From Acidaminococcus massiliensis (lineage in GTDB: Bacteria; Bacillota; Negativicutes; Acidaminococcales; Acidaminococcaceae): DNA of 64,000 nucleotides. Positions 7,182 to 33,198 of the stretch are shown here, one piece after another; the stretch's first letter is position 1; every line of letters starts with the position of its first letter. Position numbers and translations under genes: made by a program. The notes beneath the pieces are model-generated. The model worked only from the letters and a program-made list of their open reading frames with translations, was not told the origin of the DNA and searched no databases. The stretch lies in assembly GCF_900095825.1 (NCBI RefSeq), contig NZ_LT608315.1, positions 1,476,311 to 1,540,310 of the forward strand, in the 5' to 3' direction.

Positions 7182-7193
7182 CAATGCTATAAT
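7164..7193 (+). promoter_or_regulatory. Promoter for the ZTP-regulated gene
   Basis: TTGACC and TATAAT with an 18-base spacer, overlapping the end of the radical SAM gene and leading directly into the riboswitch. Confidence 0.7.
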
Positions 7194-7202
7194 TGAATGG
7201 AC

Positions 7203-7300
7203 AGATCATGTGACTGACGGAAGTGGGTCCACCCACAGGGAGCATGGTCGTAGAACGCCGACCGTCTGGGCACCTGCTGTGGCCCGGGGCCGGCTTTTTC
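7203..7300 (+). promoter_or_regulatory. ZTP (pfl) riboswitch with terminator-type platform
   Basis: The leader contains the pfl-motif core: TGACTGACGGAAGTGGG, then CCACCCACAGGGAGCATGG, then CCGACCGTCTGGGCA, in the expected order. A GC-rich hairpin (GGCCC/GGGCC region) with CTTTTTCTTTT follows at about 7280-7303, consistent with control of transcription termination. In the known class ZMP/ZTP binding turns on folate and purine genes when 10-formyl-THF is low. The downstream gene is a 10-formyl-THF-using AICAR transformylase, which fits. Confidence 0.88.
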
Positions 7301-7325: not shown

Positions 7326-8501
7326 ATGAAAGAACTGAAACTGAAGTATGGTTGCAATCCCAACCAGATCCCGGCCCGGATCTTTATGCAGAATGGGGCG
7401 GATCTGCCCATTACGGTGCTCAACGGCAATCCGGGGTACATCAATTTTCTGGATGCCTTCAACAGCTGGCAGCTGGTGCGGGAACTGCGGAGAGCCACCG
7501 GTCTGCCGGCAGCCGCTTCCTTCAAACATGTAAGCCCGGCCGGGGCGGCTGTAGGCCTGCCGCTGACGGATACCCTGAAGAAGATCTACAGCGTGGAAGG
7601 CCTGGACCTGTCCCCTCTGGCCAGTGCCTATGCCCGGGCCCGTGGGGCGGACCGGATGAGTTCTTTCGGGGATTTCGTGGCTCTGTCCGACGTGTGCGAC
7701 AAAGCCACCGCCCTGGTGCTCCAGCATGAAGTGTCCGACGGGGTCATTGCGCCCGGGTACGAACCGGAAGCCCTGGAAATCCTGTCCGCCAAGAAAAAGG
7801 GCCGTTACAATGTGATCCAGATCGACCCGGCCTACGAACCGGAAGAACTGGAAACAAAGCAGGTCTTCGGCATCACCTTTGAACAGAAACGGAACAACGA
7901 CCATATTACGGAAGACCTGCTCCGGAACCGGCCTACGAAGAACAAGGAAATCCCAGAAGCCGCCCGGCGGGATCTTTTGATCGCCATGATCACCCTGAAA
8001 TACACCCAGTCCAACTCCGTGTGCTATGTGAAGGACGGCCAGACCATCGGCGTGGGCGCCGGCCAGCAGTCCCGGATCCACTGCACCCGTCTGGCCGGGG
8101 ACAAAGCGGACAAATGGTGGCTGCGTCAGAGCCCCAAGGTGCTGAACCTTCCCTTCCGGGCGGATATCCGGAAACCGGACCGGGACAACACCATCGACGT
8201 GTACACTTCTGACGACTGGGAAGATGTGCTGGCTGACGGAGTATGGGAAAACTTCTTTACGGAAAAACCGGAACCCATGACCCGGGAAGAACGGAAGGCC
8301 TGGATCGCCAGGAACACCGGGGTAGCCCTGGGTTCCGACGCTTTCTTCCCCTTTGGGGACAACATTGAACGGGCCCACCGGAGCGGGGTGGAATACATCG
8401 CCCAGACCGGCGGCAGCATCCGGGACGACAATGTGATCGCCACCTGCGATAAATACAACATCGCCATGGCCATGACGGGAGTCCGGCTGTTCCATCATTG
8501 A
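7326..8501 (+). CDS. Phosphoribosylaminoimidazolecarboxamide formyltransferase (stand-alone)
   Basis: Transfers the formyl group of 10-formyl-THF to AICAR in purine synthesis. The 391-residue protein corresponds to the transformylase half of PurH and lacks the N-terminal IMP cyclohydrolase (MGS-like) domain. The catalytic Lys-His pair is in SFKHVSPAG (K67, H68), and QSNSVCYVKDGQTIGVGAGQQSR is the conserved substrate-binding region. ATG follows TAAGGAGG. It is a single gene between the ZTP riboswitch and a terminator. IMP cyclohydrolase must be encoded elsewhere (for example PurO or a separate PurH domain). Confidence 0.92.
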   Translation: MKELKLKYGCNPNQIPARIFMQNGADLPITVLNGNPGYINFLDAFNSWQLVRELRRATGLPAAASFKHVSPAGAAVGLPLTDTLKKIYSVEGLDLSPLASAYARARGADRMSSFGDFVALSDVCDKATALVLQHEVSDGVIAPGYEPEALEILSAKKKGRYNVIQIDPAYEPEELETKQVFGITFEQKRNNDHITEDLLRNRPTKNKEIPEAARRDLLIAMITLKYTQSNSVCYVKDGQTIGVGAGQQSRIHCTRLAGDKADKWWLRQSPKVLNLPFRADIRKPDRDNTIDVYTSDDWEDVLADGVWENFFTEKPEPMTREERKAWIARNTGVALGSDAFFPFGDNIERAHRSGVEYIAQTGGSIRDDNVIATCDKYNIAMAMTGVRLFHH

Positions 8502-8639: not shown

Positions 8640-8918
8640 ATGTAATCAAAAATGACTGCGAAGGAAAGAAGATCAGAAAACGGGTTCCCAGAGAGTCGAC
8701 AGTTGCTGCGAGCCGATAATCCGTTTCTGAATGATGACTGGTTCCTGAGTCGTCCGGGTGATAGGTAGTCCGGAACGGGAGGTCCCGTTACAGGCCTTAG
8801 CCTTATACCGAAATGGTAAGAGGTGAAAGGGTCGGTCTTTTGATCGGCTGAATTAGGGTGGTACCGCGTGGAATTTACAACCTCGCCCCTACAGGATACA
8901 GGGGGCGGGGATTTTTTA
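8640..8918 (+). promoter_or_regulatory. T-box leader (leucine candidate) of leuA
   Basis: The T-box AGGGTGGTACCGCG is at 8855-8868, followed by a terminator at 8881-8917 (CCTCGCCCCT/GGGGCGGGG region, then ATTTTTT). Upstream, GAGAGTCGACAGTTGCTGCGAG is typical of stem I. ATCA (8672-8675) pairs with TGAT (8732-8735) and ACGG (8680-8683) with CCGT (8721-8724), leaving an internal loop whose 3' side contains CTG (8727-8729) followed by A. CUG is therefore the candidate leucine specifier. A second hairpin (GATGACT/AGTCGTC) follows. Uncharged tRNA-Leu would allow read-through into leuA. Confidence 0.9.
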
Positions 8919-8951
8919 TGGCCCGCCTCGGAAAACAAGGAGGAAACCATT

Positions 8952-10640
8952 ATGCATAAGCCCATTAAAAAGTACATTCCTTTCCAAGGAGTCAGTCTGC
9001 CGGACCGGACCTGGCCGGATAAGACCATCACCAAGCCTCCCATCTGGTGCAGTGTAGATCTGCGGGATGGGAACCAGGCCCTGGTGACCCCCATGCAGCT
9101 GGAAGAGAAGCTGCTGCTGTTCACCACTCTGGTGAAGATTGGATTCAAGGAAATCGAAGTGGGGTTTCCCTCTGCTTCCGATACGGAATATGAGATCCTC
9201 CGGACCTTGATCGAGGACAACTACATCCCCGACGATGTGACCATCCAGGTACTGGTCCAGGCCCGTCCAGAACTGATCAAGAAGACTTTCGAGGCGGTGA
9301 AGGGTGCCAAGAACGTAATCATCCACTTCTACAACTCCACATCCACCCTCCAGCGGAAAATCGTATTCCGGAAGGATATGGAAGGAATCACAAAAATCGC
9401 CGTGGACGGGGCCAAACTGATCCGGGAGCTGACGGAAAAGGAAATCGCCAAAAGCGGCATGAACATCCGGTATGAATATTCTCCCGAAAGCTTTACGGGC
9501 ACAGAAACCGACTATGCAGTAGAAATCTGTGAAGCGGTGCTGGATACCCTGGGAGCCACCAAGGAGAAACCGGTGATCATCAACCTGCCCTCCACCGTGG
9601 AAATGTCCACCCCCAACACCTATGCGGACCAGATCGAATATTTCATCCGCCACATGAAGGACCGGGAACGGGCCATCATCAGCCTGCATCCCCACAACGA
9701 CCGGGGCGAAGGAGTGGCCGCTACGGAGCTGGCTCTGATGGCCGGAGCCGACCGGGTAGAAGGGACCCTGTTCGGCAACGGGGAACGGACCGGGAATGTG
9801 GATATCGTCACCCTCGCCCTCAACATGTACACCCACAATGTGGATCCCCAGCTGGATTTCTCCCACATCAACCGGATCAAACGGATCTGTGAAAGTGTCA
9901 CCAAGATGAAGGTGGAACCCCGCCATCCCTATGCCGGGGAACTGGTCTTCACCGCTTTTTCCGGGTCTCATCAGGATGCCATCCGGAAAGGCTTCAAGTA
10001 CATGGCGGATACCAACAGCCGATACTGGGAAGTGCCCTACCTGCCCATCAACCCGGCAGATATCCACCGGGAATATGAACCGGTGATCCGCATCAACAGC
10101 CAGTCCGGCAAAGGGGGCGCGGCCTTTGTGATGCAGCAGGCGGTGGGCTACTACCTGCCCAAGGAAATGCATCCGGAATTCGGCCATATGGTGAAGGAAG
10201 CAGCCGATGAATACGGCGACGAGCTGTCTGCTACCCAGATTGTGGAACTGTTCAACAAGAAATATGTGGATTTCCGGGGCAAGTACGACCTGGGGGCCCA
10301 TAAGGTCTACGACAACCATGATGGGGATGAGGATACCAGCACTACTTTTGAAGGAGATATCAAGGCCGACGGCACGGAAATGCACATCACCGGCAATGGG
10401 AACGGCCCCATCGATGCCTTCTTCAACGCGTTGAACAAAATCGGGGTGGACGGGTTCGAATTCATCAACTACCATGAACACGCCATTTCCCAGGGGTCCA
10501 ATTCCAAGGCCATTTCCTATATCGAACTGAAGAAACCGGATGGGAACCATATCTTCGGAGTGGGGATCCATCCCAACATCAATACGGCTTCCTTACTGGG
10601 CATCATCAACGCCATCAACCGGGCCATCGCTCGGCAGTGA
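8952..10640 (+). CDS. leuA: 2-isopropylmalate synthase, type 2 LeuA
   Basis: Condenses acetyl-CoA with 2-ketoisovalerate, the first committed step of leucine synthesis. The 562-residue protein fits the longer type 2 LeuA class: HMGL-like TIM barrel (VDLRDGNQALVTPM metal/substrate loop near residue 40, HPHNDRGEG near 245), then the C-terminal regulatory domain ending in GIHPNINTASLLGIINAINRA. The ATG with AGGAGG is chosen; longer frames would begin inside the T-box terminator. It is monocistronic, with no leuBCD next to it, and controlled by the upstream T-box. Confidence 0.95.
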   Translation: MHKPIKKYIPFQGVSLPDRTWPDKTITKPPIWCSVDLRDGNQALVTPMQLEEKLLLFTTLVKIGFKEIEVGFPSASDTEYEILRTLIEDNYIPDDVTIQVLVQARPELIKKTFEAVKGAKNVIIHFYNSTSTLQRKIVFRKDMEGITKIAVDGAKLIRELTEKEIAKSGMNIRYEYSPESFTGTETDYAVEICEAVLDTLGATKEKPVIINLPSTVEMSTPNTYADQIEYFIRHMKDRERAIISLHPHNDRGEGVAATELALMAGADRVEGTLFGNGERTGNVDIVTLALNMYTHNVDPQLDFSHINRIKRICESVTKMKVEPRHPYAGELVFTAFSGSHQDAIRKGFKYMADTNSRYWEVPYLPINPADIHREYEPVIRINSQSGKGGAAFVMQQAVGYYLPKEMHPEFGHMVKEAADEYGDELSATQIVELFNKKYVDFRGKYDLGAHKVYDNHDGDEDTSTTFEGDIKADGTEMHITGNGNGPIDAFFNALNKIGVDGFEFINYHEHAISQGSNSKAISYIELKKPDGNHIFGVGIHPNINTASLLGIINAINRAIARQ

Positions 10641-15269: not shown

Positions 15270-15291
15270 CAGAACCATCAAAATCACATAC

Positions 15292-15443
15292 CTTCATCGA
15301 GAGCAGCAGAGGGATTTGGCCCTATGAAGCTGCGGCAACCCCCGGAAGGGAAGGTGCCAATTCCAACAGGGATCCTCCCTGGCAGATGAAAAGCGAGCTC
15401 AGTCATCGAAAACGCCATCTGCCCAGCAGATGGCGCTTTTCTT
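15292..15443 (+). promoter_or_regulatory. SAM-I riboswitch with terminator
   Basis: The S-box core is clear: ATCGAGAGCAGCAGAGGGA, TGGCCCTATGAAGCTGCGGCAACC, GGTGCCAATTCC, and AGATGAAAAGCGAG. A terminator follows at 15412-15434 (CGCCATCTG/CAGATGGCG, then CTTTTCTTT). SAM binding is expected to favour termination, shutting off the downstream methionine-binding lipoprotein. Confidence 0.95.
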
Positions 15444-18686: not shown

Positions 18687-19532
18687 TTATGCTGCCAGCA
18701 AAGAAAGCCTGTATTGAACAGGACTTTTCCAGCCCAGTTTTTCCTTGATCCTTTGTTCGTTATAGTATTTGATGTATCGTTCGATAGCGGCTTTTAGTTC
18801 TTCGTAGCTGTAGTAGATCACTCCATAATACATTTCCTGTTTCATTAAGCCGAAAAAGTTTTCCATTACAGCGTTATCATGACAGTTACCCTTTCGAGAC
18901 ATGCTCTGAAAAATTCGTTCTTTTTTTAGTTTCCTGGTATAGGCCTTCATTTGGTATGCCCAGCCCTGATCGGAGTGAAACGTTCTTCGATATGGACAAT
19001 CAGCAGTAATTTCGATTGCTTCAGCTTGAGCTTCCAGTATGCTTTCAGCCGAAGGACGTTTGGCTATTCCATAGCTGATGATTTCATCATCGAACATGTC
19101 CAGGAAAGGATCCAGATAAAGCTTGTGCAGGGTCAGATGTCCCTGTGTATCTACTTCATAATATTTGAATTCTGAAGTATCGGTCGTAATCTTCTGATGT
19201 GGGATATTCGTCTCAAAACGACGATGTATTCTATTCGGAGCAATGGTCCCTACCTTACCCTTATAGGAACTGTATTTACGGCTTTTCCGGGTAAAGGATG
19301 TTACCTGAAGGCTCAGTTTCTGCATGATACGTTGAACTTTCTTCTTGTTCACGCAAATCCCTTGATTCTTCAGCTCACCGGTCATGCGCCGATATCCATA
19401 ATCTTTATGCTGGCTGCGGATTTCCTGTATTTTGTCCTCTACTTCCTGGTCTGGATTCACGCGGTCAAACCGTTTCTGCCAGTACATATAGGTCGCTTTG
19501 GGCATTTGAGTATAGGAGAGAAGGTCTTTCAA
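18687..19532 (-). CDS. IS3-family transposase OrfB (DDE integrase)
   Basis: The 281-residue catalytic subunit. An HTH_21-type segment (HKDYGYRRMTGEL) is followed by the rve integrase core: first aspartate in ITTDTSEF, second in the LDPFLDMFDDEIISYG region, and the glutamate in VMENFFGLMKQE. FHSDQGWAYQ is the usual FHSDqG motif. Its start overlaps the orfA stop by four bases, so expression is by coupling or frameshifting. The sequence is full length with no internal stop. Confidence 0.93.
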   Translation of the reverse strand: MKDLLSYTQMPKATYMYWQKRFDRVNPDQEVEDKIQEIRSQHKDYGYRRMTGELKNQGICVNKKKVQRIMQKLSLQVTSFTRKSRKYSSYKGKVGTIAPNRIHRRFETNIPHQKITTDTSEFKYYEVDTQGHLTLHKLYLDPFLDMFDDEIISYGIAKRPSAESILEAQAEAIEITADCPYRRTFHSDQGWAYQMKAYTRKLKKERIFQSMSRKGNCHDNAVMENFFGLMKQEMYYGVIYYSYEELKAAIERYIKYYNEQRIKEKLGWKSPVQYRLSLLAA

Positions 19533-20107
19533 TTTGAATGATCTTCGGAGACTGGAGATGATTTTCGCAACTCTCTCATTTTTGCTTCGTCCTCTAAACG
19601 CAGTCTCCTCAGTTCTTTTAAAAAAGCATTCTCTATACGGAGTTTAAGATTTTCATCCTCTAACTCCTTGACATGTTCCACACTGATGTCGACCATCGGC
19701 TGCTGAACCTGGGTATCTGTTTTTTTGGTTTGAGATTTGTTCAAAGTTCTCTTCCTGCCTTTTTTATGTGACCGTAAAGCATCTGGTCCCGCAATTCTAA
19801 ATTCATTGACCCATCTGGCAATCATTGATGGGTTGTTGATCCCTACTTGAATTGCTAGTTCCTGATATGAGATTTCATTTGTTAAGTAAGACTCTACCAC
19901 AGAAAGTTTTTCTTTGAAAGAGTATATTTTTTGAGAGCGGGATCTTTTCAGTCCATCATCACCAAATGCCTTGTAAGCAGCAACCCACTTTAGCAGCTGG
20001 CTGCTACTTGCCATCCCATATTTACGTGAAATAGAAATACACCCTTCGTCACTGTTCAAATATTCCAGTACTATTTTTTTCTTAAATTCATAGCTGTGTT
20101 TTGCCAT
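19529..20107 (-). CDS. IS3-family transposase OrfA (helix-turn-helix)
   Basis: A 192-residue DNA-binding subunit with two helix-turn-helix segments: CISISRKYGMASSSQLLKW and ISYQELAIQVGINNPSMIARW. A Lys/Arg-rich linker and a C-terminal coiled coil (EHVKELEDENLKLRIENAF) follow, as in IS150 InsJ-type proteins that pair with InsK. It is read leftward from just inside the right inverted repeat. Confidence 0.92.
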   Translation of the reverse strand: MAKHSYEFKKKIVLEYLNSDEGCISISRKYGMASSSQLLKWVAAYKAFGDDGLKRSRSQKIYSFKEKLSVVESYLTNEISYQELAIQVGINNPSMIARWVNEFRIAGPDALRSHKKGRKRTLNKSQTKKTDTQVQQPMVDISVEHVKELEDENLKLRIENAFLKELRRLRLEDEAKMRELRKSSPVSEDHSN

Positions 20108-20183: not shown

Positions 20184-20864
20184 CTATTTTATCTTTACCG
20201 GTACTTCTTTCCCGATCCATAGGGAATCAGGGGTTACTTGGCAGTCATAGGCCAGGAGATGGACGCCGGCCTCTTGGGCGTCCAGGAGAGCTTGGCCGAA
20301 ATCCGGATCTGTTTTCCAGTTGGGTTCGAAATGGTCCACGTTTTCCATCTGGATCACCAGGAACACATAGGCTCCGTATCCTTCCCGGCCGGCTCGGATC
20401 AGTTCGTGGAGGTGCTTGGCCCCCCGGGCGGTAGGGGCATCGGGGAAGCGGACCACCCCATTTTCTTCCAAGGTAACGCCCTTGACTTCCAGGAAGGCTT
20501 TCCGGCTGCCCTGTTCCAGATAGAAGTCGAAGCGGGACTGGTCATACCGGTATTCCGGCTGGATCCGGGTCAGACCGGGGAGACCGCCCTGTTCCAGCCA
20601 TTCTTGGACCACTTTGTTGGGGGCTTGGGAATCCATGTTGATCAGCCGGGTCCCTTTTTCCACGGCCACCAGGTCATACTTGGTCTTCCGTTTGGGATTT
20701 CCGCTGGCTGTCAGGTAGACCCTGGCCCCGGGGACCAGCAGTTCCCGGCAGCGGCCGGTATTCTTCACATGGCAGGTTTCTTCCCGGCCACCGATCTCCA
20801 CCTGGGCGATGAATCGATTGGGCCGGGCCAGGAACCGGCCGGATGTAATGTTGGGATAGTGCAT
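20184..20864 (-). CDS. sfsA: SfsA-family DNA/RNA nuclease
   Basis: SfsA proteins combine an N-terminal OB-like domain with a C-terminal PD-(D/E)xK nuclease fold; E. coli SfsA was first noted for sugar fermentation stimulation. Conserved family segments are CHVKNTGRCRELLVPGARVYL, YDQSRFDFYLEQ, FLEVKGVTLEENG (the D-ExK site) and FPDAPTARGAKHL. The ATG before HYPNITSGRFLARPNRF matches the usual N-terminus; a GTG at 20909, overlapping the upstream gene, would add 15 residues. It lies downstream of the MBL hydrolase in a probable two-gene operon, with the IS just beyond its 3' end. Confidence 0.92.
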   Translation of the reverse strand: MHYPNITSGRFLARPNRFIAQVEIGGREETCHVKNTGRCRELLVPGARVYLTASGNPKRKTKYDLVAVEKGTRLINMDSQAPNKVVQEWLEQGGLPGLTRIQPEYRYDQSRFDFYLEQGSRKAFLEVKGVTLEENGVVRFPDAPTARGAKHLHELIRAGREGYGAYVFLVIQMENVDHFEPNWKTDPDFGQALLDAQEAGVHLLAYDCQVTPDSLWIGKEVPVKIK

Positions 20865-20890
20865 AGGGTATTGAGGAGTCCTTTCTTTTT

Positions 20891-21691
20891 TTACCACACT
20901 TTCAGGCACTCCAGGTCGTTGGGGATGAACAGATTCCCCTTGTAATATGTTTTCCCTTCGGCGGTGTAGAGGGCCTTCCGCTGGGGAAGGCAGGTGTCTT
21001 CCGTGTGGTACAGGATCAGATTGGGGACCTGGAGCCGGTCCCCATTTTCACAGGCTTCCCGGACCGTGGAGTGATGCTTTTCGTAGGGACGGAACCGTTC
21101 CCGGTCCCGGTAGAGACAGAAGGCCTCGTGGAGCAGCCACTGGCTCCCGGCCAGCCGGGTGAAATTGGCGTCGTTCAGAGGTTCATCCCCGCAGCAGCCC
21201 AGCTTGTGCCCATTGCTTTCCAGAGTATAGCCGAACTGCCGGGCCTTGGTGGAATGGATGTCGAAAAAGGTCACATCCCAGCCACGGATCTTCAGGGTCT
21301 CCCCGTCTTCCACCGGGATGAAATGGAGCCGGGTATCCAGGAATCCCAGATCCCCTGGATCCAGCAGCAGAGCTGCCGTGGAGCGGAGCAGATGGATCAC
21401 TTCCTCATGGCCATAGATCCGGGCTTCCCCCACATAAGTCCCCCGTTTCATAGCCTTGACGATCATCCGTATGAGCCAGAACACCCCCAATACATGGTCC
21501 ATGTGTCGGTGGGTCACAAAGATGTCCTTGATCTTCTGCCAGGGGAGACGGGCCCGCTGGAGCTGCCGCAGGATCCCGTTGCCCCCGCCCCCGTCCACCA
21601 GAAGGTACCGTTCATTCTGCCGCAGGACGTAGCAGGTGTTGTAGCAGCGGGTGGAGATGGCATGCCCCGTGCCCAAAAAAAGAATTTCCAT
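20891..21691 (-). CDS. MBL-fold metallo-hydrolase, RNase Z-like
   Basis: A 266-residue metallo-beta-lactamase-fold protein. It begins MEILFLGTGHA as RNase Z-type proteins do, carries the zinc motif THRHMDH near residue 62, and has CCGDEPL and HEAFC segments for later ligands. KHHST resembles the third RNase Z histidine motif. It lacks the long exosite expected of a typical RNase Z, so a small-molecule phosphodiesterase or other hydrolase is as likely. Its 3' end touches the sfsA start region, suggesting an operon. Confidence 0.85.
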   Translation of the reverse strand: MEILFLGTGHAISTRCYNTCYVLRQNERYLLVDGGGGNGILRQLQRARLPWQKIKDIFVTHRHMDHVLGVFWLIRMIVKAMKRGTYVGEARIYGHEEVIHLLRSTAALLLDPGDLGFLDTRLHFIPVEDGETLKIRGWDVTFFDIHSTKARQFGYTLESNGHKLGCCGDEPLNDANFTRLAGSQWLLHEAFCLYRDRERFRPYEKHHSTVREACENGDRLQVPNLILYHTEDTCLPQRKALYTAEGKTYYKGNLFIPNDLECLKVW

Positions 21692-21762
21692 AAATCGCTT
21701 TTCCTTCCGTAGAGTTGTCTATAGTATACCCTATGGAACCAGTAGAAGAAAAGAGGGCGGGG

Positions 21763-22788: not shown

Positions 22789-24414
22789 ATGAAAAAAGGC
22801 TATGCACGGATTAATGATCCCTTTTTGAATAAAGGTACGGCATTTACGGAAGAGGAACGGGAACAATTCGGCTTGGTGGGAATCCTGCCTCCTGTGGTCC
22901 AGACGCTCCAGGAACAGGTGGACCAGGCGTATGGGAATGTCCGGAACAGGGAAGGGGTCAGCGCCAAACGCCATTACCTCATGAACCTTTTCAGCCGGAA
23001 CCGGACCCTGTTCTATGCCCTATTCCAGCAGCATGTGAAGGAATTCATGCCCATTGTGTACGATCCGGGGATTGCGGAAAGCATCCGGAACTACAGTGAT
23101 TTCTTCGTGACGCCCCAGAATGCGGTGTACCTTTCCATCGACCGGCAGGACCAGTTGGAACAGGCTCTGGTGAACGGAGCGGAAGGTCGCCGGATCCGGC
23201 TCATGGTGGTCACTGACGGGGAAGCCATCCTTGGCATCGGAGACTGGGGAACCAACGGGGTCAGCATCTCCACCGGGAAGCTGATGGTCTATACGGCGGC
23301 AGCCGGCATCGATCCCTCCCAGGTGCTGCCCGTGGTGCTGGACGCCGGGACCAATCGGCAGAGCCTGCTGGAAGATCCCCTCTATTTGGGGGTGCGCCAC
23401 AGCCGGGTGAAAGGGGAAAAGTACCTGGCCTTCGTGGACCGGTTCGTAGCCACGGCGGAGCGGCTCTTCCCGGGGCTGTACCTCCATTTCGAAGATTTCG
23501 GCCGGGACCATGCGGCTCAACTGCTGGATAAATACAAAAACGCCCATCCCGTGTTCAATGACGATATCGAAGGGACGGGGATCATTACTTTGGCTGGGAT
23601 CCTGGGAGGCCTGGCCATTACGGGAGAAAAGCTCCGGGACCAGAAATACCTGTGCTTCGGAGCAGGGACGGCCGGCTGCGGCATCGTCCGGCGGATCTAT
23701 CTGGAAATGCAGGAACAAGGGCTGACCGCGGAAGAAGCCCGGCAGAGATTCTACCTGGTGGACAAGCAGGGCCTGCTCTTTGACGATATGGAAGACCTGA
23801 CACCGGAACAGAAGCCCTTTGCCCGGAAGCGGGAGGAGTTTGCTCCTGGGGCCCGGCTGGACACTCTGGAAAAAGCAGCGGCCGCCATCCATCCCACCAT
23901 CCTGGTGGGGACCTCCACCTGTGCCGGCGCCTTTACAGAATCCATCGTCCGAGAAATGGCTTCCCACTGCATCCGTCCCATGATCTTCCCCTTGAGCAAT
24001 CCCACGGAACTGGCAGAAGCCAAAGCCTCTGACTTGATCCGTTGGACGGAAGGGCGGGCCCTGGTAGCCACCGGGATCCCCTCGGAACCGGTGGAATATA
24101 ATGGTGTCTCTTACGCCATCGGCCAGGCCAACAATGCCCTGATCTATCCGGGGCTGGGGTTGGGGGTCATTGCCAGCCAGGCCCGGCTCCTCACCGACGG
24201 GATGATTTCTGCCGCCGCCCATTCCTTGGGGGGCATCGTGGATCCGGCCCAGCCCGGTGCTGCCGTCCTGCCGCCGGTTTCTCGGCTCATGGATTTTTCC
24301 GAAACGGTGGCCGCTGCGGTGGCAGGAGAAGCTCGGAAGGAAGGCCTGGCCGGGAAGGAATTTTCCGATCCCCAGACGCTGGTCCGGTCCGCCAAATGGA
24401 CACCGGTCTACTGA
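22789..24414 (+). CDS. mleS: Malolactic/NAD-malic enzyme family protein, closest to MleS
   Basis: Decarboxylates L-malate to lactate (malolactic enzyme) or pyruvate (malic enzyme). At 541 residues it has the MleS length. Recall of Lactococcus MleS shows extended agreement: [67 protein letters not shown] and [14 protein letters not shown]. The NAD-binding [11 protein letters not shown] motif is intact. ATG after AAGAAAGG is used; an earlier ATG would add 23 unlike residues. The divergent LysR gene and the following dicarboxylate transporter support malate utilisation. Malolactic versus malic activity cannot be separated by eye. Confidence 0.88.
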
Positions 24415-25925: not shown

Positions 25926-25932
25926 AGTGTGA

Positions 25933-25966
25933 AAAGGGGGTGCTGCGCGTGCAGCACCCCCTTTTT
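25933..25966 (+). terminator. Intrinsic terminator of the malate locus
   Basis: AAAGGGGGTGCTGC and GCAGCACCCCCTTT form a stem with loop GCGT, followed by TTCC. A -10-like TATAAT (25973-25978) for the next operon comes immediately after; no good -35 is visible. Confidence 0.88.
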
Positions 25967-26024
25967 CCGTGCTATAATGGAACCATCGATGACAGAAAAG
26001 TACCACTTGTCTGGGAGAACTTTC

Positions 26025-29000
26025 ATGAAAGAGATGGAAAATACAATCAATTTATGGGAATCGCTCCAGGAGGCGGTGCGCACGCCGGCCTTCTGCAAAG
26101 CTGTAGGCCTTACCTTGGAACAGGTACAGCAGCAGCTCAAAGCCTGCCGTCTGGAGGAAGCCTGTCCCCTCCTGGAAAGCACCGCCGATCCCCAAGGCCG
26201 GTTCTCTGCCTCGGCTGCTTTGGAGATCCTCCGAGGCTTCCTGCCGGTCCTGGCGGATGAACCGCCCCAAGGCTGGCTGTCTGACTGCTACCAGTATCTG
26301 CTCCGTCAGATCTTCCCGGAAACCACGGAACCGGAGCCTCCGGAAGCCGCCCTCCGCTACGGAGCCGGACGGCGGACCCTGCTCCAGCTCCTCCGGGGCC
26401 TGTACCATTACGAAAAGCTCCGCTGTCCCTTCGATCCCCGGATGAACATTGCCCTGCTGCCGGTGAAAGAAGTCCGGAAGGAACATTATACCCGGGAATA
26501 TCTGCGGTTCTGCACCTTGGTCCGGGACCGGTATTTGTACGAATTCATGCGCCTGGGGACGGAAGTGACTCCCTTCAATACCTTGGGGCATATCGGCGGG
26601 GTGTCCTATGTGGCGGTGTTTATGGCCCGGCAGCTCCACAAACAGGGGGTGCCGGTGGATGTGGCCCTCATTGCCGGGGCTGCGGCAGTCCATGATATGG
26701 GCAAATACGGCTGCAAGAAAGGAGAGGAGAAACGAGTCCCCTACCTCCATTATTATTATACGGACCTTTTCTGCGAACGGGAAGGGCTGCCCCAGATGGG
26801 GCACATTGCTGCCAACCATTCGGTGTGGGATCTGGAATTGGAGAACCTGTCTGTGGAATCCCTGCTGCTGATTTATGCAGATTTCCGGGTGAAAAGCTTC
26901 CGGGATCAGGATGGGAAGGAAGTGGTCCGTTTCTACACCCTCCGGGAAGCCTTTGACGTAATCCTCCGGAAGCTGGACGATGTGGATGGGGCCAAGCGCC
27001 AGCGCTACCAGAAGGTGTATATGAAACTGGCGGATTTCGAGGCCTATATGGAAGAAATGGGGGTCACCACGGAACTGCCGGCTGATTTTGCCTCGGCACC
27101 GCGCCAGGAAAAAGTCCGGCCCCGGCGGGAAAATGTCCTCCTGGAAGGAGAAGAGGTGGTCCGCCAGCTGAAATATGCCGCCATTGCCCACAACATCCGG
27201 CTCATGAGCCTTTTCCGCAGCGAGCGGGATTTCGGCAACCTGATCGAAGCCGCCCGCAGCGAGCAGAACTGGAAGAACCTCAGAGCCTATATCAGCATCT
27301 TTGAAGAATATTCCACTTACATGACGGAACGGCAGAAGCTGATGACCCTCCAGTTCCTGTATGAGCTCCTGAGCCACCAGGAAGAGGACATCCGAGTCCA
27401 GGCAGCCACTCTCATGGGGAAGATCGTAGCCAATTTCAACGAACGCTACACCAAGGAACTGCCACAGGGGGTGCTGCTACCCCGGAAGAAGGTCACCAAC
27501 CAGACCTTGTTCCGGCAGTACCTGGACCAGATCATCGATCCGGAGCGGCGCTATACCCAGCAGCACAAGAACCGGATCGGCTCCTGTCTGGGACCCTTTG
27601 TCCGGTCGGTGCTGGCCACCCGGTACCAGCGGCTGGGGACGGCCCAGGCCAACATCGTCGAAGAAGAGCATCCCACTGCCCCCTATCTGGACGTGCTGGC
27701 GGGCTGGTATCAGCTGCCGGCGCCTACTCCGGAACAGCGGATGACCCTGCTCCAGGCTCTGCTGTTCCTCCGTCCGGAAGATCTCACTAGGGAATTTTGC
27801 CAAAAAGTAGAGCAGACACTGGAAGAAGCGGCGGGGGATCCCATCCTCATTGTGCGGATCGGAGCCCTTTATGCTGCCCACCATCTCTTCGGGGAAAAAG
27901 CAGGAAAAGGAACCTTCGTCCTCCAGCTGCTCCGGACCATGGACCTGCCGGAAGATCCCCAGGCTTTTGCCGAAAGGGAAAGCAGCCTCTTCCTAGAAGA
28001 CCTGAAAAGTGGGGTCCACTGGATGATCAAGATGGCCAACATCCATCTCATGTGCCACGCCCTGCTGCACCGGAAAGAACCGGGGAATGTGATGCACTTG
28101 GGGATGCATCTGTGCAACTTGGTGAAGGTCAGCGAATACCTGGCCGTGCGCCAGGCGGCCGGAGAAGCACTTCTGGAGATCGCCGATTCCATGACTTACG
28201 CCCAGCGCAACGAAATGGCGGTGGAGCTGTTCAACGGCCTGGAAATCGGGGACCTGCAAATCACCAAATACGTGCCGGAATACCTGGGCCGGATGATCTT
28301 GAAGCTGCTGCCGGAGGAACTGGATGAATTCCTCTCTTCCCTCCGGGAAGACATGGATTCCACCAATTTCCAGCTGGCCGGGGCGGCGGTGGATACCATG
28401 GGGGTAGTGCTGGAAAATTTCCAGGCATTTGCAGATCGGTTCCCCGGAGCGGGGGGAGAAAACGAAAAACGCCAGCTCCGGCTGCTCTACGCCATCCTCC
28501 GGGCCTTTGCCCATTACAACCGGGAACTGAGCCGGGATGCTTTCCGGGACCTGGCCGCTTACGTGTTCCGCAGCCGGCAGATGTCGGATGGCCGGAAGGA
28601 TTTCCTTTTCCTCCACAGCTGCAAGAAGATCTGGGTGCTCCTCAACGAAAATACTGAAGGGAAACTGGATTTCTACAGCAATGCGGCGGTCCTGAACCAT
28701 TTGTACCGATACATCGGCCGGGTGGAAGCCCAAGGGGGCGGCTTCGCCTTCCCCGCAAAGCGGAAGGTCTGCTTCTACCCCGGCACCTTCGATCCCTTCA
28801 GCAGCGGACACAAAGCAGTGGCCCGGCGGATCCGGGATATGGGGTTTACAGTGTATCTGGCCCTGGATGAATTCTCCTGGTCTAAACACACCCAGCCCCG
28901 GCTCATGCGCCGGAAAATCATGAACATGTCCGTGGCGGATATGGAGGATATCTATCCCTTCTCGGAGAACCTGCCGGTGAACATCGCCAACCCGGAAGAT

Positions 29001-30962
29001 ATCCGGAAACTGAAGGCAATCTTTGCCCACAAGGAACTGTACCTGGCTGTGGGATCCGATGTGGTGGAAAATGCCTCGGCTTACCGGCTGGAGCCGGCGG
29101 AAGATTCCATCCATTCGGTGAACCATATCATATTCCAGAGGGAGACTCGGGAAAATTCCAACTGGTACACGGATGCTCCGGCCCGGCAGGAACAGGAAAA
29201 GACCGCGGAAAAGAAGATCCGGGGAAAGATCCTCCATCTGCGGCTGGATAAATTCTACGAGGATGTGAGTTCCACCCGGATCCGGGAGAATATCGATCAG
29301 AACCGGGATATTTCCGCTCTCATAGACCCGGTGGCCCAGAACTTCATCTATGCAAACAATTTGTATCTCCGGGAACCTGCCTATAAGCACATCTTGGAAG
29401 CCAGGGAAATCGGCATCGGAGAATTCCGGCCCCGGAAAGGGGAGGAATTGCCCCATCTTCCGGAACTCTTGGAAGGAAAGGGGACGGACGGCCTGCTGCT
29501 CCGGCGCTATCTGGAATGGCGGGGCGAAGACGGCCGGCCGAAGGTCTTTACCCAATATGTGGACAGCGGGGAACGGGGGAAACATCTGGCGGCTTTCGGA
29601 GCGGTGCACCAGGTGCCGGTCCGGGAACTGCTCCTGGAATTCCAGGATCCCCAGGCGGCAGAACACATCCGGGAAGAAGCTTCTGGGCGCATTGCGGCCC
29701 TGGGGTATTTTGCGGTCAGCGGGGACAGTCCCATCTCCCATCCAGGACAGATCCTCCTGACGGAGATGATGACGGAACTGATCAACCGGGATTTCACTTA
29801 TGTGGTTTACCATCCGGTGGATCCTTCCGGCTATCGGGAAGAGGCCATCGGAGCCTTGGTCCGCCAGGGCTTTGTGGATATCGCTCCGGAAGGGGCGTCC
29901 CATCCTCTTTATGCCGTCCAGATCAAATCCCCGGTGGTATTGTTCCGGGATGTGGAAACCACCATCAAGAATCCCTTCAACAAGAATCCCCGGGTGCTCC
30001 GGGCCCTGGATCGGGCCCACAACAATCTCCTGCGGGTGCTCCGGAGGCTCTATCCGGGGAAACTGATCCTTTCCTTCAACCCCAGCGCCATGCACTACCG
30101 GATCATCCAGAAAGTGGCCCGGCTCAATGGGGTCTCCACCTTGGAAGATCCCAAGAAACGGCGGGGACCCTACATGTCCGTCCCCTTCGGGAAGGCCCTC
30201 AGCGATGTGCTGGTGCCTAACACGGTAACCAAAGCCCTCCATATCGAAAAGTACTTCAATCGGGCCGTGAAGGGGTTTACCTTGGCGGAAGCTCATCATT
30301 ACGCTACCGTGGATAACCAGGTGAAGACCATCCGGTCCTTCCGCCGGCCGGTGATCCTCATCGACGATCTGCTGGAAAAAGGGCATCGGATGCGGATGCT
30401 CACGCCCTATCTGAAAAAGAACGACGTGGAAGTCCGGGAAGTATTGGTGGGGGTCATGACCGGCTATGCCATGGACCTGATGGCCCAGCAGGGCCTCCAC
30501 TGTGAAAGCGCTTACTTCCTGCCGTCCCTGGAACTGTGGCTCAACGAGCGGGACTGCTATCCCTTCATCGGCGGGGACAGCATCGATAATGCCAACAACT
30601 ACAGCGGTTATGACCGGAATCCTTCGGTGAACCTGATCCTGCCCTATGTGAAGCCAGAATTCATCTGCGGCGGAGAGGCGGATGCGGTGAACCTCTATTC
30701 CCTTACCTGTCTCCAGAATGCCCGGCTGATCATGGAGACCCTCCAGGACGAATACCAGGCCCTGTATGAAAAACGGCTCACTTTGAAGCGGCTGGGAGAA
30801 GTGCTTTCCGTGCTCCGGATCCCGGATATGGATATCGGGGTGAAATTCGACGCCAACATGGACCCCACCCGTTTCATCGACAACGACATCGAACGGCTGG
30901 TGCGGCTGCGCTGGGGAGAAGGCGGCATCCGGCTGCAGGAAAGGAACCGGGGTGGCGAATGA
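26025..30962 (+). CDS. Giant multidomain protein: HD + helical repeats + nucleotidyltransferase + GNAT-like + PRTase
   Basis: A 1645-residue cytoplasmic protein with no signal peptide or membrane segment. Visible parts in order: an HD-type phosphohydrolase (H189, HD at 223-224, H260, H265, about residues 185-330); a long alpha-helical region resembling HEAT repeats (about 370-905); a NadD/CoaD-type nucleotidyltransferase (YPGTFDPFSSGH ending at H929, and SSTRIR at 1082-1087); a GNAT-like segment (about 1210-1310, ALVRQGF); and a type I phosphoribosyltransferase with PRPP loop VILIDDLLEKGHR (D1447, D1448). All motif residues look intact. ATG behind GGGAGA is chosen; longer frames begin in the terminator. 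It is followed closely by two oxidoreductase-fold genes. The assortment suggests making, salvaging or degrading a nucleotide-type cofactor or signal; that is inference, and I know of no described function for the whole protein. Confidence 0.85.
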   Translation: MKEMENTINLWESLQEAVRTPAFCKAVGLTLEQVQQQLKACRLEEACPLLESTADPQGRFSASAALEILRGFLPVLADEPPQGWLSDCYQYLLRQIFPETTEPEPPEAALRYGAGRRTLLQLLRGLYHYEKLRCPFDPRMNIALLPVKEVRKEHYTREYLRFCTLVRDRYLYEFMRLGTEVTPFNTLGHIGGVSYVAVFMARQLHKQGVPVDVALIAGAAAVHDMGKYGCKKGEEKRVPYLHYYYTDLFCEREGLPQMGHIAANHSVWDLELENLSVESLLLIYADFRVKSFRDQDGKEVVRFYTLREAFDVILRKLDDVDGAKRQRYQKVYMKLADFEAYMEEMGVTTELPADFASAPRQEKVRPRRENVLLEGEEVVRQLKYAAIAHNIRLMSLFRSERDFGNLIEAARSEQNWKNLRAYISIFEEYSTYMTERQKLMTLQFLYELLSHQEEDIRVQAATLMGKIVANFNERYTKELPQGVLLPRKKVTNQTLFRQYLDQIIDPERRYTQQHKNRIGSCLGPFVRSVLATRYQRLGTAQANIVEEEHPTAPYLDVLAGWYQLPAPTPEQRMTLLQALLFLRPEDLTREFCQKVEQTLEEAAGDPILIVRIGALYAAHHLFGEKAGKGTFVLQLLRTMDLPEDPQAFAERESSLFLEDLKSGVHWMIKMANIHLMCHALLHRKEPGNVMHLGMHLCNLVKVSEYLAVRQAAGEALLEIADSMTYAQRNEMAVELFNGLEIGDLQITKYVPEYLGRMILKLLPEELDEFLSSLREDMDSTNFQLAGAAVDTMGVVLENFQAFADRFPGAGGENEKRQLRLLYAILRAFAHYNRELSRDAFRDLAAYVFRSRQMSDGRKDFLFLHSCKKIWVLLNENTEGKLDFYSNAAVLNHLYRYIGRVEAQGGGFAFPAKRKVCFYPGTFDPFSSGHKAVARRIRDMGFTVYLALDEFSWSKHTQPRLMRRKIMNMSVADMEDIYPFSENLPVNIANPEDIRKLKAIFAHKELYLAVGSDVVENASAYRLEPAEDSIHSVNHIIFQRETRENSNWYTDAPARQEQEKTAEKKIRGKILHLRLDKFYEDVSSTRIRENIDQNRDISALIDPVAQNFIYANNLYLREPAYKHILEAREIGIGEFRPRKGEELPHLPELLEGKGTDGLLLRRYLEWRGEDGRPKVFTQYVDSGERGKHLAAFGAVHQVPVRELLLEFQDPQAAEHIREEASGRIAALGYFAVSGDSPISHPGQILLTEMMTELINRDFTYVVYHPVDPSGYREEAIGALVRQGFVDIAPEGASHPLYAVQIKSPVVLFRDVETTIKNPFNKNPRVLRALDRAHNNLLRVLRRLYPGKLILSFNPSAMHYRIIQKVARLNGVSTLEDPKKRRGPYMSVPFGKALSDVLVPNTVTKALHIEKYFNRAVKGFTLAEAHHYATVDNQVKTIRSFRRPVILIDDLLEKGHRMRMLTPYLKKNDVEVREVLVGVMTGYAMDLMAQQGLHCESAYFLPSLELWLNERDCYPFIGGDSIDNANNYSGYDRNPSVNLILPYVKPEFICGGEADAVNLYSLTCLQNARLIMETLQDEYQALYEKRLTLKRLGEVLSVLRIPDMDIGVKFDANMDPTRFIDNDIERLVRLRWGEGGIRLQERNRGGE

Positions 30963-30990
30963 GCCGGTCCATTGGAAAGGAGCGAAAGAG

Positions 30991-31977
30991 ATGGAAAAAG
31001 AATGGTATCATATCAGCGATCTGCCGAAAGAAGTGGGGGTTTCCCATCCCCTATCCCTGGCTGGACGGCCGGCGCTCCCGGCCAAGAAACGGGTGCACAT
31101 CCTGGCCCTGGGGGATGTGGGCCGGACCATGCTCCTGGGGCTCCGGCTCCTGGGGGCGGACCAGATTGCTTCCATCGGTCTCTGCGACCTGGACGAAAAA
31201 AAACTCCAGCGGCTGGAAATCGAAATCAACCAGATCCGCTATCCCTTCCCCACCGAGGAACAAGTGCTGCCTCCTGTGGACATCATACCGGAAGACCGGC
31301 TCTTTGCCTGCGATGTGTTCATCTTCTGTGCCACCAAGGGCACGCCTCCCATCGGGGCTAAGGGGGATATGCGGATGATCCAGTTGGAGGCCAACCGTGA
31401 GCTGGTCCGGCATTTCGGAGAACTGGCTCGGAAGGCGGCTTATAAGGGGCTGGCCTGCATCGTCTCCGATCCCGTGGACAACCTGTGCCGGGCCTTTTGG
31501 GAAAGCTCCGGCCTGGCGCCCTGGCAGGTCCAGGGGTACGGGCTGGGGGTCATGCACGCCCGGGCCTGCTACTATGCGGAAAAGGATCCCCAGCTGAGCC
31601 ATTATCTTACGGAAGGACGGGCTTTCGGACCCCATGGCCAGGACCTGGTGATCGCTGACAGCCTGGAACAGTACGATGATGCCCTCTCCCGGGAACTGAC
31701 CCGAAAGACAGTGGCCTGCAACCTGGAAGTCCGGGCTCTGGGATATAAGCCCTATCTGGCGCCGGCTCTTTCCAGTGCGGCCCTTTCCATCCTGCTGACC
31801 CTCCGAGGGGCCTGGCATTACGGATCCCTGTATCTGGGTGACCAGGAAGAGGGAGCTTTCTTGGGCCTGAAGAACCGGCTGACGGAAACAGGTTTCGAAT
31901 ATGAGGATCCGGCTCTTTGCCCCGCCCTTTACGGACGGATCCGCCAGGCCTATCTGAATCTGTGCCGGATGAAGTGA
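30991..31977 (+). CDS. Divergent lactate/malate dehydrogenase-fold protein
   Basis: A 328-residue protein that follows the LDH/MDH plan: Rossmann start KKRVHILALGDVGRTMLLGL (about residues 31-50), strand VFIFCATKGTPP like the usual VITAG loop, SDPVDNLCRAF in place of TNPVD, and FGPHGQD with H215 at the position of the catalytic histidine. The usual partner aspartate (in LD-ARFR) is replaced: the corresponding segment reads MHARACY, with H189 and R191. Catalysis, if any, must differ from LDH. ATG follows AAAGGAG, 28 bases after the giant gene, indicating one operon. Substrate unknown. Confidence 0.75.
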   Translation: MEKEWYHISDLPKEVGVSHPLSLAGRPALPAKKRVHILALGDVGRTMLLGLRLLGADQIASIGLCDLDEKKLQRLEIEINQIRYPFPTEEQVLPPVDIIPEDRLFACDVFIFCATKGTPPIGAKGDMRMIQLEANRELVRHFGELARKAAYKGLACIVSDPVDNLCRAFWESSGLAPWQVQGYGLGVMHARACYYAEKDPQLSHYLTEGRAFGPHGQDLVIADSLEQYDDALSRELTRKTVACNLEVRALGYKPYLAPALSSAALSILLTLRGAWHYGSLYLGDQEEGAFLGLKNRLTETGFEYEDPALCPALYGRIRQAYLNLCRMK

Positions 31978-32002
31978 CCGGCTGCTGCAGGAAGGGATTG
32001 CT

Positions 32003-33106
32003 ATGTTCTATGTGATCAAGCTGGGATGGCAGGAAGAAGAGGATACCGGGCGGGTGGACCGGGTGCTGGCCAGGGCCCTCCGGGACCATCCTCATCAGGT
32101 GGTGGGGACAGCTGCGGAATTTGCCCGGCTCTTCCCGGAAGAGGGCCCTAGGGGACCTCAGCGGCTGCTTTTTGTGGTGAACCTGGCCCGGGGCGGCATG
32201 AGCCTGGGGTTCGCCAAGCTCATTGCCTATGTTTCCCAGCACCGGCACTGCCTGGAAAACTGCGTGGGCAGCGTTGTGGTGGACGGGGCGGAGGAACTAT
32301 TCACCAAGAAGGCCGGCCGGGAGATGATTTTCCTGGCCAACCGGTCCGGCTGCAGCTTCCCCGGCGCTCCCCTTGTGGAAGCTACTGGCTCCCTGTACAA
32401 TTTCAACATCCAGGCCAAGCTCCAAGGAGTGGACAACCTGGAAGCCTACGAAAATGCCGTGGAACGGCTGGTGAGACAGCTCCTGGCCTTCCAGGGGGCT
32501 CCGGTACCGGAAGGGAGAAAGCACCGGATCGCCCTGTTCCATGCCAGCAGCCGGAAGACCTCCAACACCCTGCTCCTTTGGAGCCTGGTCCGCCGTGCCA
32601 TGGGCAGCCGGGCCCTGGTGCGGGAAGTGAACCTGCGGAACGGCACCGTGGTGGATTGCCGGGGCTGCAGTTACGAAGCCTGTCTTCATTTCGGGGAGCA
32701 GGGGGATTGTTTTTACGGGGGCGTCATGGTGGAAGAAGGGTATCCTGCCATCCGGGAAAGCGATACCCTGGTGTTCTGCTGTCCCAATTACAATGATGCG
32801 GTGAGCGCCAACATCATGGCTTTCTTCAACCGGATGACCGCTCTGTACAGGAAAGATTTCCTGGAATTCGCCAAAAAGCGGGTCTTTGCCCTGGTGGTCT
32901 CCGGCTACAGCGGGGGAGACATCGTGGCGGAGCAGATCATCGATGCCCTGAACTGCAACAAGAGGTTTCTCCTGCCACCCCATTTCGCCCTGATGGAGAC
33001 CGCCAACGATCCGGGAAGCATCCTCCTGAATGAGGGAGTGGAGCAAAGGGCACAAGAGATGGCGGAGAGGATCGCAGGGAGTCCGGAATCAGAAGCCTCA
33101 AGATAA
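32003..33106 (+). CDS. Two-part flavodoxin-fold protein with cysteine cluster
   Basis: A 367-residue protein. The C-terminal half (about residues 170-350) resembles NADPH-dependent FMN reductases and iron-sulfur flavoproteins: HRIALFHASSRKTSNT is the phosphate-binding start, DCRGCSYEACLHFGEQGDC supplies four cysteines (C-x2-C-x4-C-x7-C) fit for a 4Fe-4S cluster, and FCCPNYNDAVSANIMAFFNR is the flavin-side loop. The N-terminal half (residues 1-150) looks like a second, degenerate flavodoxin-like unit lacking clear cofactor loops. It is the last gene of the three-gene operon and is closed by a strong terminator. An electron-transfer or reductase role is likely. Confidence 0.75.
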   Translation: MFYVIKLGWQEEEDTGRVDRVLARALRDHPHQVVGTAAEFARLFPEEGPRGPQRLLFVVNLARGGMSLGFAKLIAYVSQHRHCLENCVGSVVVDGAEELFTKKAGREMIFLANRSGCSFPGAPLVEATGSLYNFNIQAKLQGVDNLEAYENAVERLVRQLLAFQGAPVPEGRKHRIALFHASSRKTSNTLLLWSLVRRAMGSRALVREVNLRNGTVVDCRGCSYEACLHFGEQGDCFYGGVMVEEGYPAIRESDTLVFCCPNYNDAVSANIMAFFNRMTALYRKDFLEFAKKRVFALVVSGYSGGDIVAEQIIDALNCNKRFLLPPHFALMETANDPGSILLNEGVEQRAQEMAERIAGSPESEASR

Positions 33107-33163
33107 GAGCCGCCTAGTTGGCCGAATCCTTTTGATTGCAGAGGATCCAAGTTGGAATCATCG

Positions 33164-33198
33164 AAATAGTACTGTCCAGAAAAGACAGTACTATTTTT
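33164..33198 (+). terminator. Intrinsic terminator of the three-gene operon
   Basis: AATAGTACTGTC and GACAGTACTATT are perfectly complementary, followed by TTTATTTATCTTT. Unlike the two recurring terminator families, it has a unique sequence. The rest of 33107-33319 is AT-rich and shows nothing else I can name. Confidence 0.9.

Follow-up and report, generated by a model that had tools for sequence, protein, structure and literature searches.

We describe a three-gene module, here designated g1, g2 and g3, in the bacterium Acidaminococcus massiliensis, whose first gene encodes a 1645-residue multidomain protein and whose other two genes encode a relative of the lactate and malate dehydrogenases (LDH/MDH) and a flavodoxin-fold protein. 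The three open reading frames (ORFs) stand in a row on the plus strand at 26025-33106 of the window, by which we mean the whole stretch of 64,000 nucleotides that was analyzed (contig NZ_LT608315.1 of assembly GCF_900095825.1, positions 1,476,311 to 1,540,310). The folds in the module are known ones, and among described systems it comes closest to the pair formed by NadD, which adenylates nicotinate mononucleotide (NaMN), and YqeK, a hydrolase of diadenosine tetraphosphate (Ap4A). The module is read most coherently as acting on nucleotides or a cofactor, and we propose, tentatively and with somewhat less than even confidence, that it makes, quality-checks and uses a dinucleotide that resembles nicotinamide adenine dinucleotide (NAD), or a closely related pyrophosphate-linked nucleotide, other than NAD itself.

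The three genes are one functional unit, as their association in other organisms attests. A scan of a collection of genome contigs matched at least 590 stretches, at least 547 of which encode a g1 relative, in some cases perhaps an incomplete one, at E up to 1e-3. The best 80 of these relatives, most of which span nearly all of g1, together with an Acetoanaerobium locus, the window copy and six loci from other genomes, gave 88 loci for examination, including at least one duplicate contig (L031/L037). In 83 of the 88 g2 follows g1, and in 78 all three genes are linked, 77 times on one strand and once, in L096, with g3 flipped. Eight of the 10 loci lacking full linkage have 1226 or fewer bases of contig after g1; L102 and L112 have 6.0 and 10.0 kb after g1 with neither partner, and in both genomes a g2 with an adjoining g3 occurs elsewhere. 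The same gene order is found in Acetoanaerobium noterae, the first distant relative (35% identity in g1), and is kept where g1 identity is just 33-38%, a conservation far beyond chance. A sample of 299 genomes of the phylum gave a concordant picture: the genomes with g1 (above 2000 bits), with g2 (above 500) and with g3 (above 480) are identical, the four being that of the window and three of other families. Beyond these, the best matches to g1, g2 and g3 score 51, 33 and 52 bits. Among the matches listed outside these four carriers, those to the g1 profile cover the HD or the nucleotidyltransferase (NT) part, some extending slightly past the latter, and hence the C-terminal half with the GNAT-like and phosphoribosyltransferase (PRTase)-like segments appears private to the g1 family. 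A first-pass annotation of this DNA had named the failure of the three genes to occur together in other genomes as an outcome that would refute it; they do occur together wherever a locus allows the comparison.

That annotation had read g1 as a fusion of an HD hydrolase, a helical part, a NadD/CoaD-type nucleotidyltransferase (citing H929 and an SSTRIR motif), a GNAT-like segment and a loop binding phosphoribosyl pyrophosphate (PRPP) at D1447-D1448, heading an operon with an LDH-fold and a flavodoxin-fold gene; all three ORFs, the first three parts of g1 and the folds of g2 and g3 stood up in our analysis, while the remaining assignments survive in part. AlphaFold2 models built from 73 sequences gave a pLDDT of 89.6 and pTM of 0.88 for residues 1-904 and a pLDDT of 87.3 and pTM of 0.87 for residues 905-1645, and residue conservation was counted over 84 aligned rows. 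Each of the fold-search lists for the two halves was filled by one domain, HEAT in the N-terminal half and NadD in the C-terminal half.

In the N-terminal half, six of seven diverse g1 members match the HD family of Pfam at E up to 0.5, the best of them at 3.4e-5 and the window protein at 0.013, and the six predicted dimetal ligands H189, H223, D224, H242, H265 and D286 are present in all 84 rows. g1 thus carries the six-ligand H..HD..H..H..D motif of the YqeK type, an extended motif by which, according to a published account, a dinuclear site like that of YqeK is recognized (PMC8177086). A profile alignment to 22 YqeK proteins (hhalign) gave P 8e-4 at a probability of 24%, as against P 0.09 for a control with the HEAT segment. 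Together these results support the identity of the HD domain at the level of sequence. The model of the DVU_1551-family nucleoside triphosphate transferases (NF045665) likewise matches the HD region, at 3.4e-4, but this match is confined to residues 182-286 and scores 19.7 against a cut-off of 315. The long helical part that follows is, on the evidence of the model, a solenoid of the HEAT/ARM type, and Pfam HEAT matches five of the seven members at E up to 0.5. Its eukaryotic fold matches signify just a common arrangement, since helical solenoids by themselves give middling Z scores. A sequence search of the PDB with the N-terminal half returned only four matches, at 0.04 or weaker.

The NT domain is the most clearly defined part of g1, a NadD-type fold being recovered by both sequence and structure. 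The model aligned to NadD of Mycobacterium tuberculosis in VIA-align with Z 18.5 over 182 residues (root-mean-square deviation 2.9), and ranks 1-45 are all NaMN or nicotinamide mononucleotide adenylyltransferases, the best CoaD reaching Z 14.5; of the two families named in the first-pass annotation NadD is accordingly the nearer. The profile alignment to 11 canonical NadDs gave E 1.8e-18, as against 6.9e-5 for the citrate lyase ligase CitC, and a PDB sequence search with the C-terminal half matched NadD, NMNAT and CoaD. Further, G920, D923, H929, G1010, D1012, S1082, S1083, I1086 and R1087 are invariant (84/84), and the threonine of the SSTxIR motif is kept in 83 of the 84 rows. g1 does not reach the cut-off of the NCBIfam NadD equivalog (37.4 bits against 112.45). 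The SYT loop and tryptophan of NadD, which we take to be its nicotinate contacts, are replaced in g1 by VNIAN, with N986 (84/84) and N989 (74/84), and by Y1020 (84/84); because the contact loop and tryptophan are replaced, the sequence suggests that the NT domain uses a substrate other than that of NadD.

The two segments that follow are more divergent. For the PRTase-like domain, four of the seven members match Pfam Pribosyltran at E up to 0.5, the best of them at 6.9e-4 and the window protein at 0.24. In a profile comparison with 30 type I PRTases, 43 columns around the PRPP loop aligned at P 2.7e-4, the control segments giving P 0.2 and 0.16. A PDB sequence search placed a hypoxanthine PRTase over the same loop at 0.32, and N1399-T1400-V1401 is found in 84/84 rows. 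The two aspartates cited in the first-pass annotation are retained, and most rows have, at the loop (VILIDDLLEKGHRM in the window protein; K1452 in 66/84), the form DDLLxKG[HY]R rather than the DDxxxTGxT expected of a PRPP-binding loop. Profile comparisons support a divergent PRTase-like site, and the nucleotidyltransferase fold is clear on structural grounds, so that the other refuting outcome named in the first-pass annotation, a prediction showing neither fold, did not arise either. The GNAT identity of the preceding segment is a fold-level hint only, from the model: GNAT chains take the last four places, ranks 47-50, among the 50 Foldseek matches listed (E 3.5e-5 to 5.9e-5, with no aligned range), and an alignment to the GNAT half of CitC gave P 0.014-0.017, as against 0.11-0.5 for three unrelated profiles. 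No GNAT family of Pfam matches the seven members at E up to 0.5, the best PDB sequence match over the segment is a sulfotransferase, at 0.019, with no GNAT, and the Q/RxxGxG/A loop by which GNATs bind acyl-CoA is not present in the segment, whose consensus at the expected site is IxNxxQIxLTE. For these reasons acyl transfer by this segment is doubtful, and the role in attachment assigned to it by the first-pass annotation is unproven.

The partner genes resemble known oxidoreductases with consistent departures. An alignment of g2 to nine LDH/MDH proteins gave E 7e-16 over 272 columns, so that it shares the full-length fold of this superfamily, and it lies narrowly over the Pfam Ldh_1_N cut-off (27.7 bits against 27). 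It keeps R141, R204 and H228 in 80 of 80 rows, which we take to be R109, R171 and H195 in LDH numbering, and the adenosine-ribose aspartate D79 in 79 of 80. In contrast to L-lactate and malate dehydrogenases, the catalytic His-Asp pair is incomplete, the D168 position being methionine in 80/80 rows; further, the N140 position is aspartate in 80/80 and the first glycine of the GxGxxG motif is alanine in 77/80. The LDH fold of the first-pass annotation therefore holds without the catalytic aspartate, and g2 is, by sequence comparison, best described as an LDH/MDH relative whose active site has changed. g3 has the FMN_red fold, well over the Pfam cut-off (58.6 bits against 24, E 7e-16), to which we add a CX2CX4CX8C motif whose four cysteines are present in 75/75 rows and which suggests an iron-sulfur (Fe-S) cluster. 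In these respects it is like the iron-sulfur flavoprotein Isf, which combines an NADPH-dependent FMN reductase fold with four cysteines, presumably in a corresponding loop and in a more compact spacing; g3 differs from it in the cysteine spacing and in an additional N-terminal region of about 170 residues, for which no Pfam or NCBIfam match was found at E up to 1. A PDB sequence search with the g3 profile returned nothing at 1e-3.

Under the reading that we prefer, these parts might act together as follows: 1) the PRTase-like domain of g1 would build or bind a ribose-phosphate conjugate of some base or acid; 2) the NadD-fold domain would join this conjugate to AMP from ATP; 3) the YqeK-like HD domain would cleave the pyrophosphate bond of a wrong or surplus product, as does the YqeK-NadD fusion of JCVI-Syn3A; 4) the GNAT-like segment and the HEAT solenoid may bind the substrate or hold partners; 5) g2 and g3, the latter a putative Fe-S flavoprotein, would reduce, oxidize or use the product. 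The JCVI-Syn3A study reports that the YqeK domain fused to NadD acts no less well on the nicotinate dinucleotides of cytosine and uracil (NaCD and NaUD) than on that of adenine (NaAD), and proposes a proofreading role for such a domain, erroneous NaAD analogues being hydrolyzed (PMC9426524). A canonical NadD scores over its cut-off in 36 of 37 genomes, including six of the seven carriers of the module (the exception is a carrier, G019, that is 63% complete), and YqeK is present in 31 of 31 genomes, six of them carriers. We therefore rejected replacement of NAD synthesis as the role of the module, and since the carriers retain both canonical enzymes the product of g1 is probably not NAD. In a narrower version, which is unlikely to be right, the module makes an undescribed NAD-like redox cofactor: a base other than nicotinate is installed by the PRTase-like domain, AMP is attached by the NT domain and the result edited by the HD domain, after which g3 would reduce it via flavin and Fe-S and g2 would be the dehydrogenase adapted to it. 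Were it so, a pyridine-like hydride carrier spread by horizontal transfer would operate in anaerobic gut bacteria in parallel with the ordinary one.

Several observations weigh against the proposed role. The Pribosyltran score of the window protein, 11.1 bits, is below the Pfam cut-off of 26.3, the hhalign probability of the PRTase match is 41%, and a comparison of the PRPP-binding motif hhhhDDxxxTGxT with VILIDDLLEKGHR shows the strand and the two aspartates retained and T-G-T replaced. In the NT domain the first histidine of HxGH is serine (79/84) or threonine (5/84), and its glycine is serine in 31/84. The likeness of the HD domain to the YqeK profile is weak, as the probability given above indicates, and the g1 HD domain is not among the matches of TIGR00488, whose sole match in genome G000 at E 1e-3 is a separate canonical yqeK. 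Beyond the module itself no neighbor family is found in more than 13 of the 88 loci, the flanks of which differ in length, so that no constant neighbor points to a substrate. Lastly, the module is dispensable, full-length g1 being missing from three of eight congeners.

The module might instead serve metabolite repair of the ordinary NAD pool, with g1 remaking or destroying damaged pyridine nucleotides, g2 and g3 reducing or oxidizing the damaged forms, and no new cofactor involved; g1 would then be an addition to the NadD and YqeK that the carriers keep, and the invariance of the HD ligands and of most NT catalytic residues, together with the NadD-YqeK pair being reported as a proofreading unit (PMC9426524), would accord with this. 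We consider it unlikely, given that the nicotinate-contact residues are replaced, that proofreading needs neither a PRTase-like domain nor a solenoid of 500 residues, and that the patchy distribution is a poor fit for the repair of a universal cofactor. Quite unlikely, too, is an alarmone or signaling unit in which the NT domain makes and the HD domain degrades an Ap4A-like or modified dinucleotide, the solenoid transmits the signal, and g2 and g3 report redox state: such a unit would fit the opposition of NT and HD folds in a single chain, the Ap4A-hydrolase ligand motif of the HD domain, the HEAT scaffold and the accessory distribution, but as no neighbor beyond g2 and g3 recurs in more than 13 of the 88 loci no dedicated receptor is linked to it, and the substrate-binding arginines retained in the LDH-like protein fit catalysis better than sensing.

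CitC offers a different precedent, for in it, too, a GNAT domain accompanies a nucleotidyltransferase with the fold of the NT domain, and by analogy the NT domain of g1 might make an acyl-AMP from which the GNAT-like segment transfers the acyl group, g2 and g3 processing the acid. The occurrence of both parts in one chain, the weak profile match to the GNAT half of CitC and the organic-acid genes that flank the module in the window all point this way, but we regard such an acyl-activating machine as improbable and rejected g1 as a CitC member: its NT domain is far nearer to NadD than to CitC, the order of the two domains is reversed, the acyl-CoA loop is missing, neither TIGR00124 nor Citrate_ly_lig matches g1 at E up to 1 in Pfam and NCBIfam searches, a CitC is encoded separately in the host, and the organic-acid neighbors are inconstant in other loci. 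PRTase-, HD- and NT-type domains also occur in systems of biological conflict, and an anti-phage role, in which infection would set such domains to consuming or modifying NAD or nucleotides, would be in keeping with the horizontal spread and loss of the module and with weak PADLOC matches of the Acetoanaerobium proteins (g1 to ShosT at 0.0016, g2 to Aga_Unknown at 0.0075). This we hold to be highly improbable and rejected because the three window proteins are without a PADLOC match at E 0.1; further, no match was found in phage records and none was confirmed in viral contigs, and over wide divergence the HD ligands, like most of the catalytic residues of the NT domain, stay invariant.

The synthesis of a dinucleotide other than NAD thus remains our preferred reading, and the NadD-YqeK fusion (JCVISYN3A_0380, Mycoplasma) its closest precedent, as it likewise joins a NadD-type NT and an HD domain with dimetal ligands in one chain. 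g1 differs from this fusion in that the HD domain is N-terminal and set apart from the NT domain by the large HEAT solenoid, the nicotinate contacts are replaced, and the host also keeps an ordinary NadD and YqeK; the module moreover adds the GNAT-like and PRTase-like parts and two constant partner genes. No Pfam, NCBIfam or PADLOC model covers g1 or the module, and no description of the module was found by full-text searches of open-licence PMC papers aimed at it, in agreement with the earlier suggestion that the combination is undescribed. If the product is a new cofactor the module would be categorically new, and a new dinucleotide would add a cofactor or signal to the metabolism of anaerobes and give NadD-HD editing a second example. 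Concrete substrates can be chosen for testing from the domains present, and a close congener that carries a natural deletion of the module provides a ready comparison.

Going by their record titles, many of the g1 loci come from metagenome-assembled genomes (MAGs) of the rumen and other animal guts, and the module is common in anaerobes. In a midpoint-rooted FastTree phylogeny of g1, for which branch support is not displayed, Acidaminococcus and Megasphaera nest among clostridial sequences (Hornefia, Emergencia), and Eubacterium pyruvativorans falls within the Acidaminococcus-Megasphaera group; this nesting indicates that the module moves horizontally. Within the genus full-length g1 is found in five of eight other genomes. 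In one congener, G006, only a stretch matching g1 residues 4-50 is present (L032, 8320-8469), followed by a stop, beside the same gene for a DASS transporter that follows the module in two others (G004 and G007); we interpret this remnant as a deletion scar, the module having been lost by deletion. Given such loss within the genus and horizontal transfer, the module is accessory, yet under strong constraint where it is kept. We rejected the possibility that it is plasmid cargo, the sole "plasmid" match (L014) being a 2.63 Mb Acetoanaerobium noterae record in PLSDB, pTPELB2, which is probably a mislabelled chromosome and whose ORFs near g1 look chromosomal. Phage cargo was likewise rejected: phage records gave no match, and of 62 pattern-matching stretches in viral contigs none encodes a relative. 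Two MAGs, RUG12063 (L065, L078) and RGIG5865 (L068, L074), each have two different g1 copies on two contigs, which could be paralogues or mixed bins. In Megasphaera sp. NM10 (L035, 15830-16911) g3 is split over two overlapping ORFs by a frameshift or a sequencing error, and the flipped g3 of L096, a Spirochaetes MAG, lies at 8760-9824, convergent with g2.

In the window the three genes form a compact operon (Table 1). We place the start of g1 at ATG 26025, which is preceded by GGGAG; a longer form from GTG 25929 was rejected as it sits just ahead of a strong hairpin and an extended -10 element. The hairpin probably terminates transcription of the DASS symporter gene that lies upstream, and TGCTATAAT is the probable operon promoter, for which no -35 match was found; a consensus scan picked up neither, and both were read directly from the sequence. 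Because hairpin, -10 element and GGGAG all lie between the DASS gene and g1, the operon seems to be transcriptionally separate from the organic-acid genes upstream of it. The longest form of the g2 ORF runs from GTG at 30952 to 31977, but ATG 30991 is more likely the start because AAAGGAG lies just upstream of it and aligned ORFs in congeners begin there: those of L034 and L041 open with methionine at the aligned position and that of L048 with TTG, while L033 has a methionine there within a longer ORF. The DASS gene is upstream of the module in the window and downstream in two congeners, and DASS or CitMHS transporters and the malolactic enzyme were rejected as parts of the module, being inconstant across the other loci.

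Table 1. Features of the module and its flanks, in window coordinates
Feature	Position	Strand	Basis
Hairpin with T run at end of 3' arm	25931..25966	+	16 pairs, -30.5 kcal/mol, z -7.5
Extended -10 element TGCTATAAT	25970..25978	+	4 such sites in window vs 0.56 expected
g1, multidomain protein, 1645 aa	26025..30962	+	
g1 HD domain, residues ~150-345	26472..27059	+	Pfam HD, ligand conservation, hhalign to YqeK
g1 HEAT/ARM-type helical solenoid, residues ~376-903	27150..28733	+	Model, Foldseek, VIA-align, Pfam HEAT
g1 NadD-fold nucleotidyltransferase, residues ~913-1118 (GTFDPFSxGH, SSTxIR)	28761..29378	+	VIA-align, hhalign
g1 GNAT-like segment, residues ~1170-1307	29532..29945	+	Foldseek, hhalign to CitC GNAT half
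g1 type I PRTase-like domain, residues ~1322-1500	29988..30524	+	Pfam, hhalign, alpha/beta order in model
PRPP-loop equivalent VILIDDLLEKGHRM, residues 1443-1456	30351..30392	+	D1447 83/84, D1448 81/84, R1455 83/84
g1 C-terminal helical segment, residues ~1552-1640	30678..30944	+	Model secondary structure
g2, LDH/MDH-superfamily protein (longest ORF from GTG 30952)	30991..31977	+	
g3, flavodoxin-fold FMN-reductase-like protein with CX2CX4CX8C	32003..33106	+	
Intrinsic terminator, hairpin and T tail, ends operon	33163..33197	+	Consensus scan; -17.2 kcal/mol, z -5.3

Elsewhere in the window, a relative of malic enzymes at 22789-24411 adjoins the DASS symporter gene and scores 913 bits with the NCBIfam malolactic enzyme model (cut-off 850). 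Two adjacent ORFs of 235 aa each (20238-20942 and 21005-21709) are without a Pfam match at 1e-4, and a two-ORF element resembling an insertion sequence, with a helix-turn-helix transposase part and an rve integrase core, occupies 18690-20107 in a stretch of low GC content (0.467). A SAM riboswitch (15291-15392, 87.4 bits) lies ahead of genes for an NlpA lipoprotein and an M20 peptidase, and a ZTP riboswitch (7200-7278, 52.5 bits) immediately precedes a gene for a PurH-type formyltransferase at 7326, with a further TGCTATAAT site beside it at 7185.

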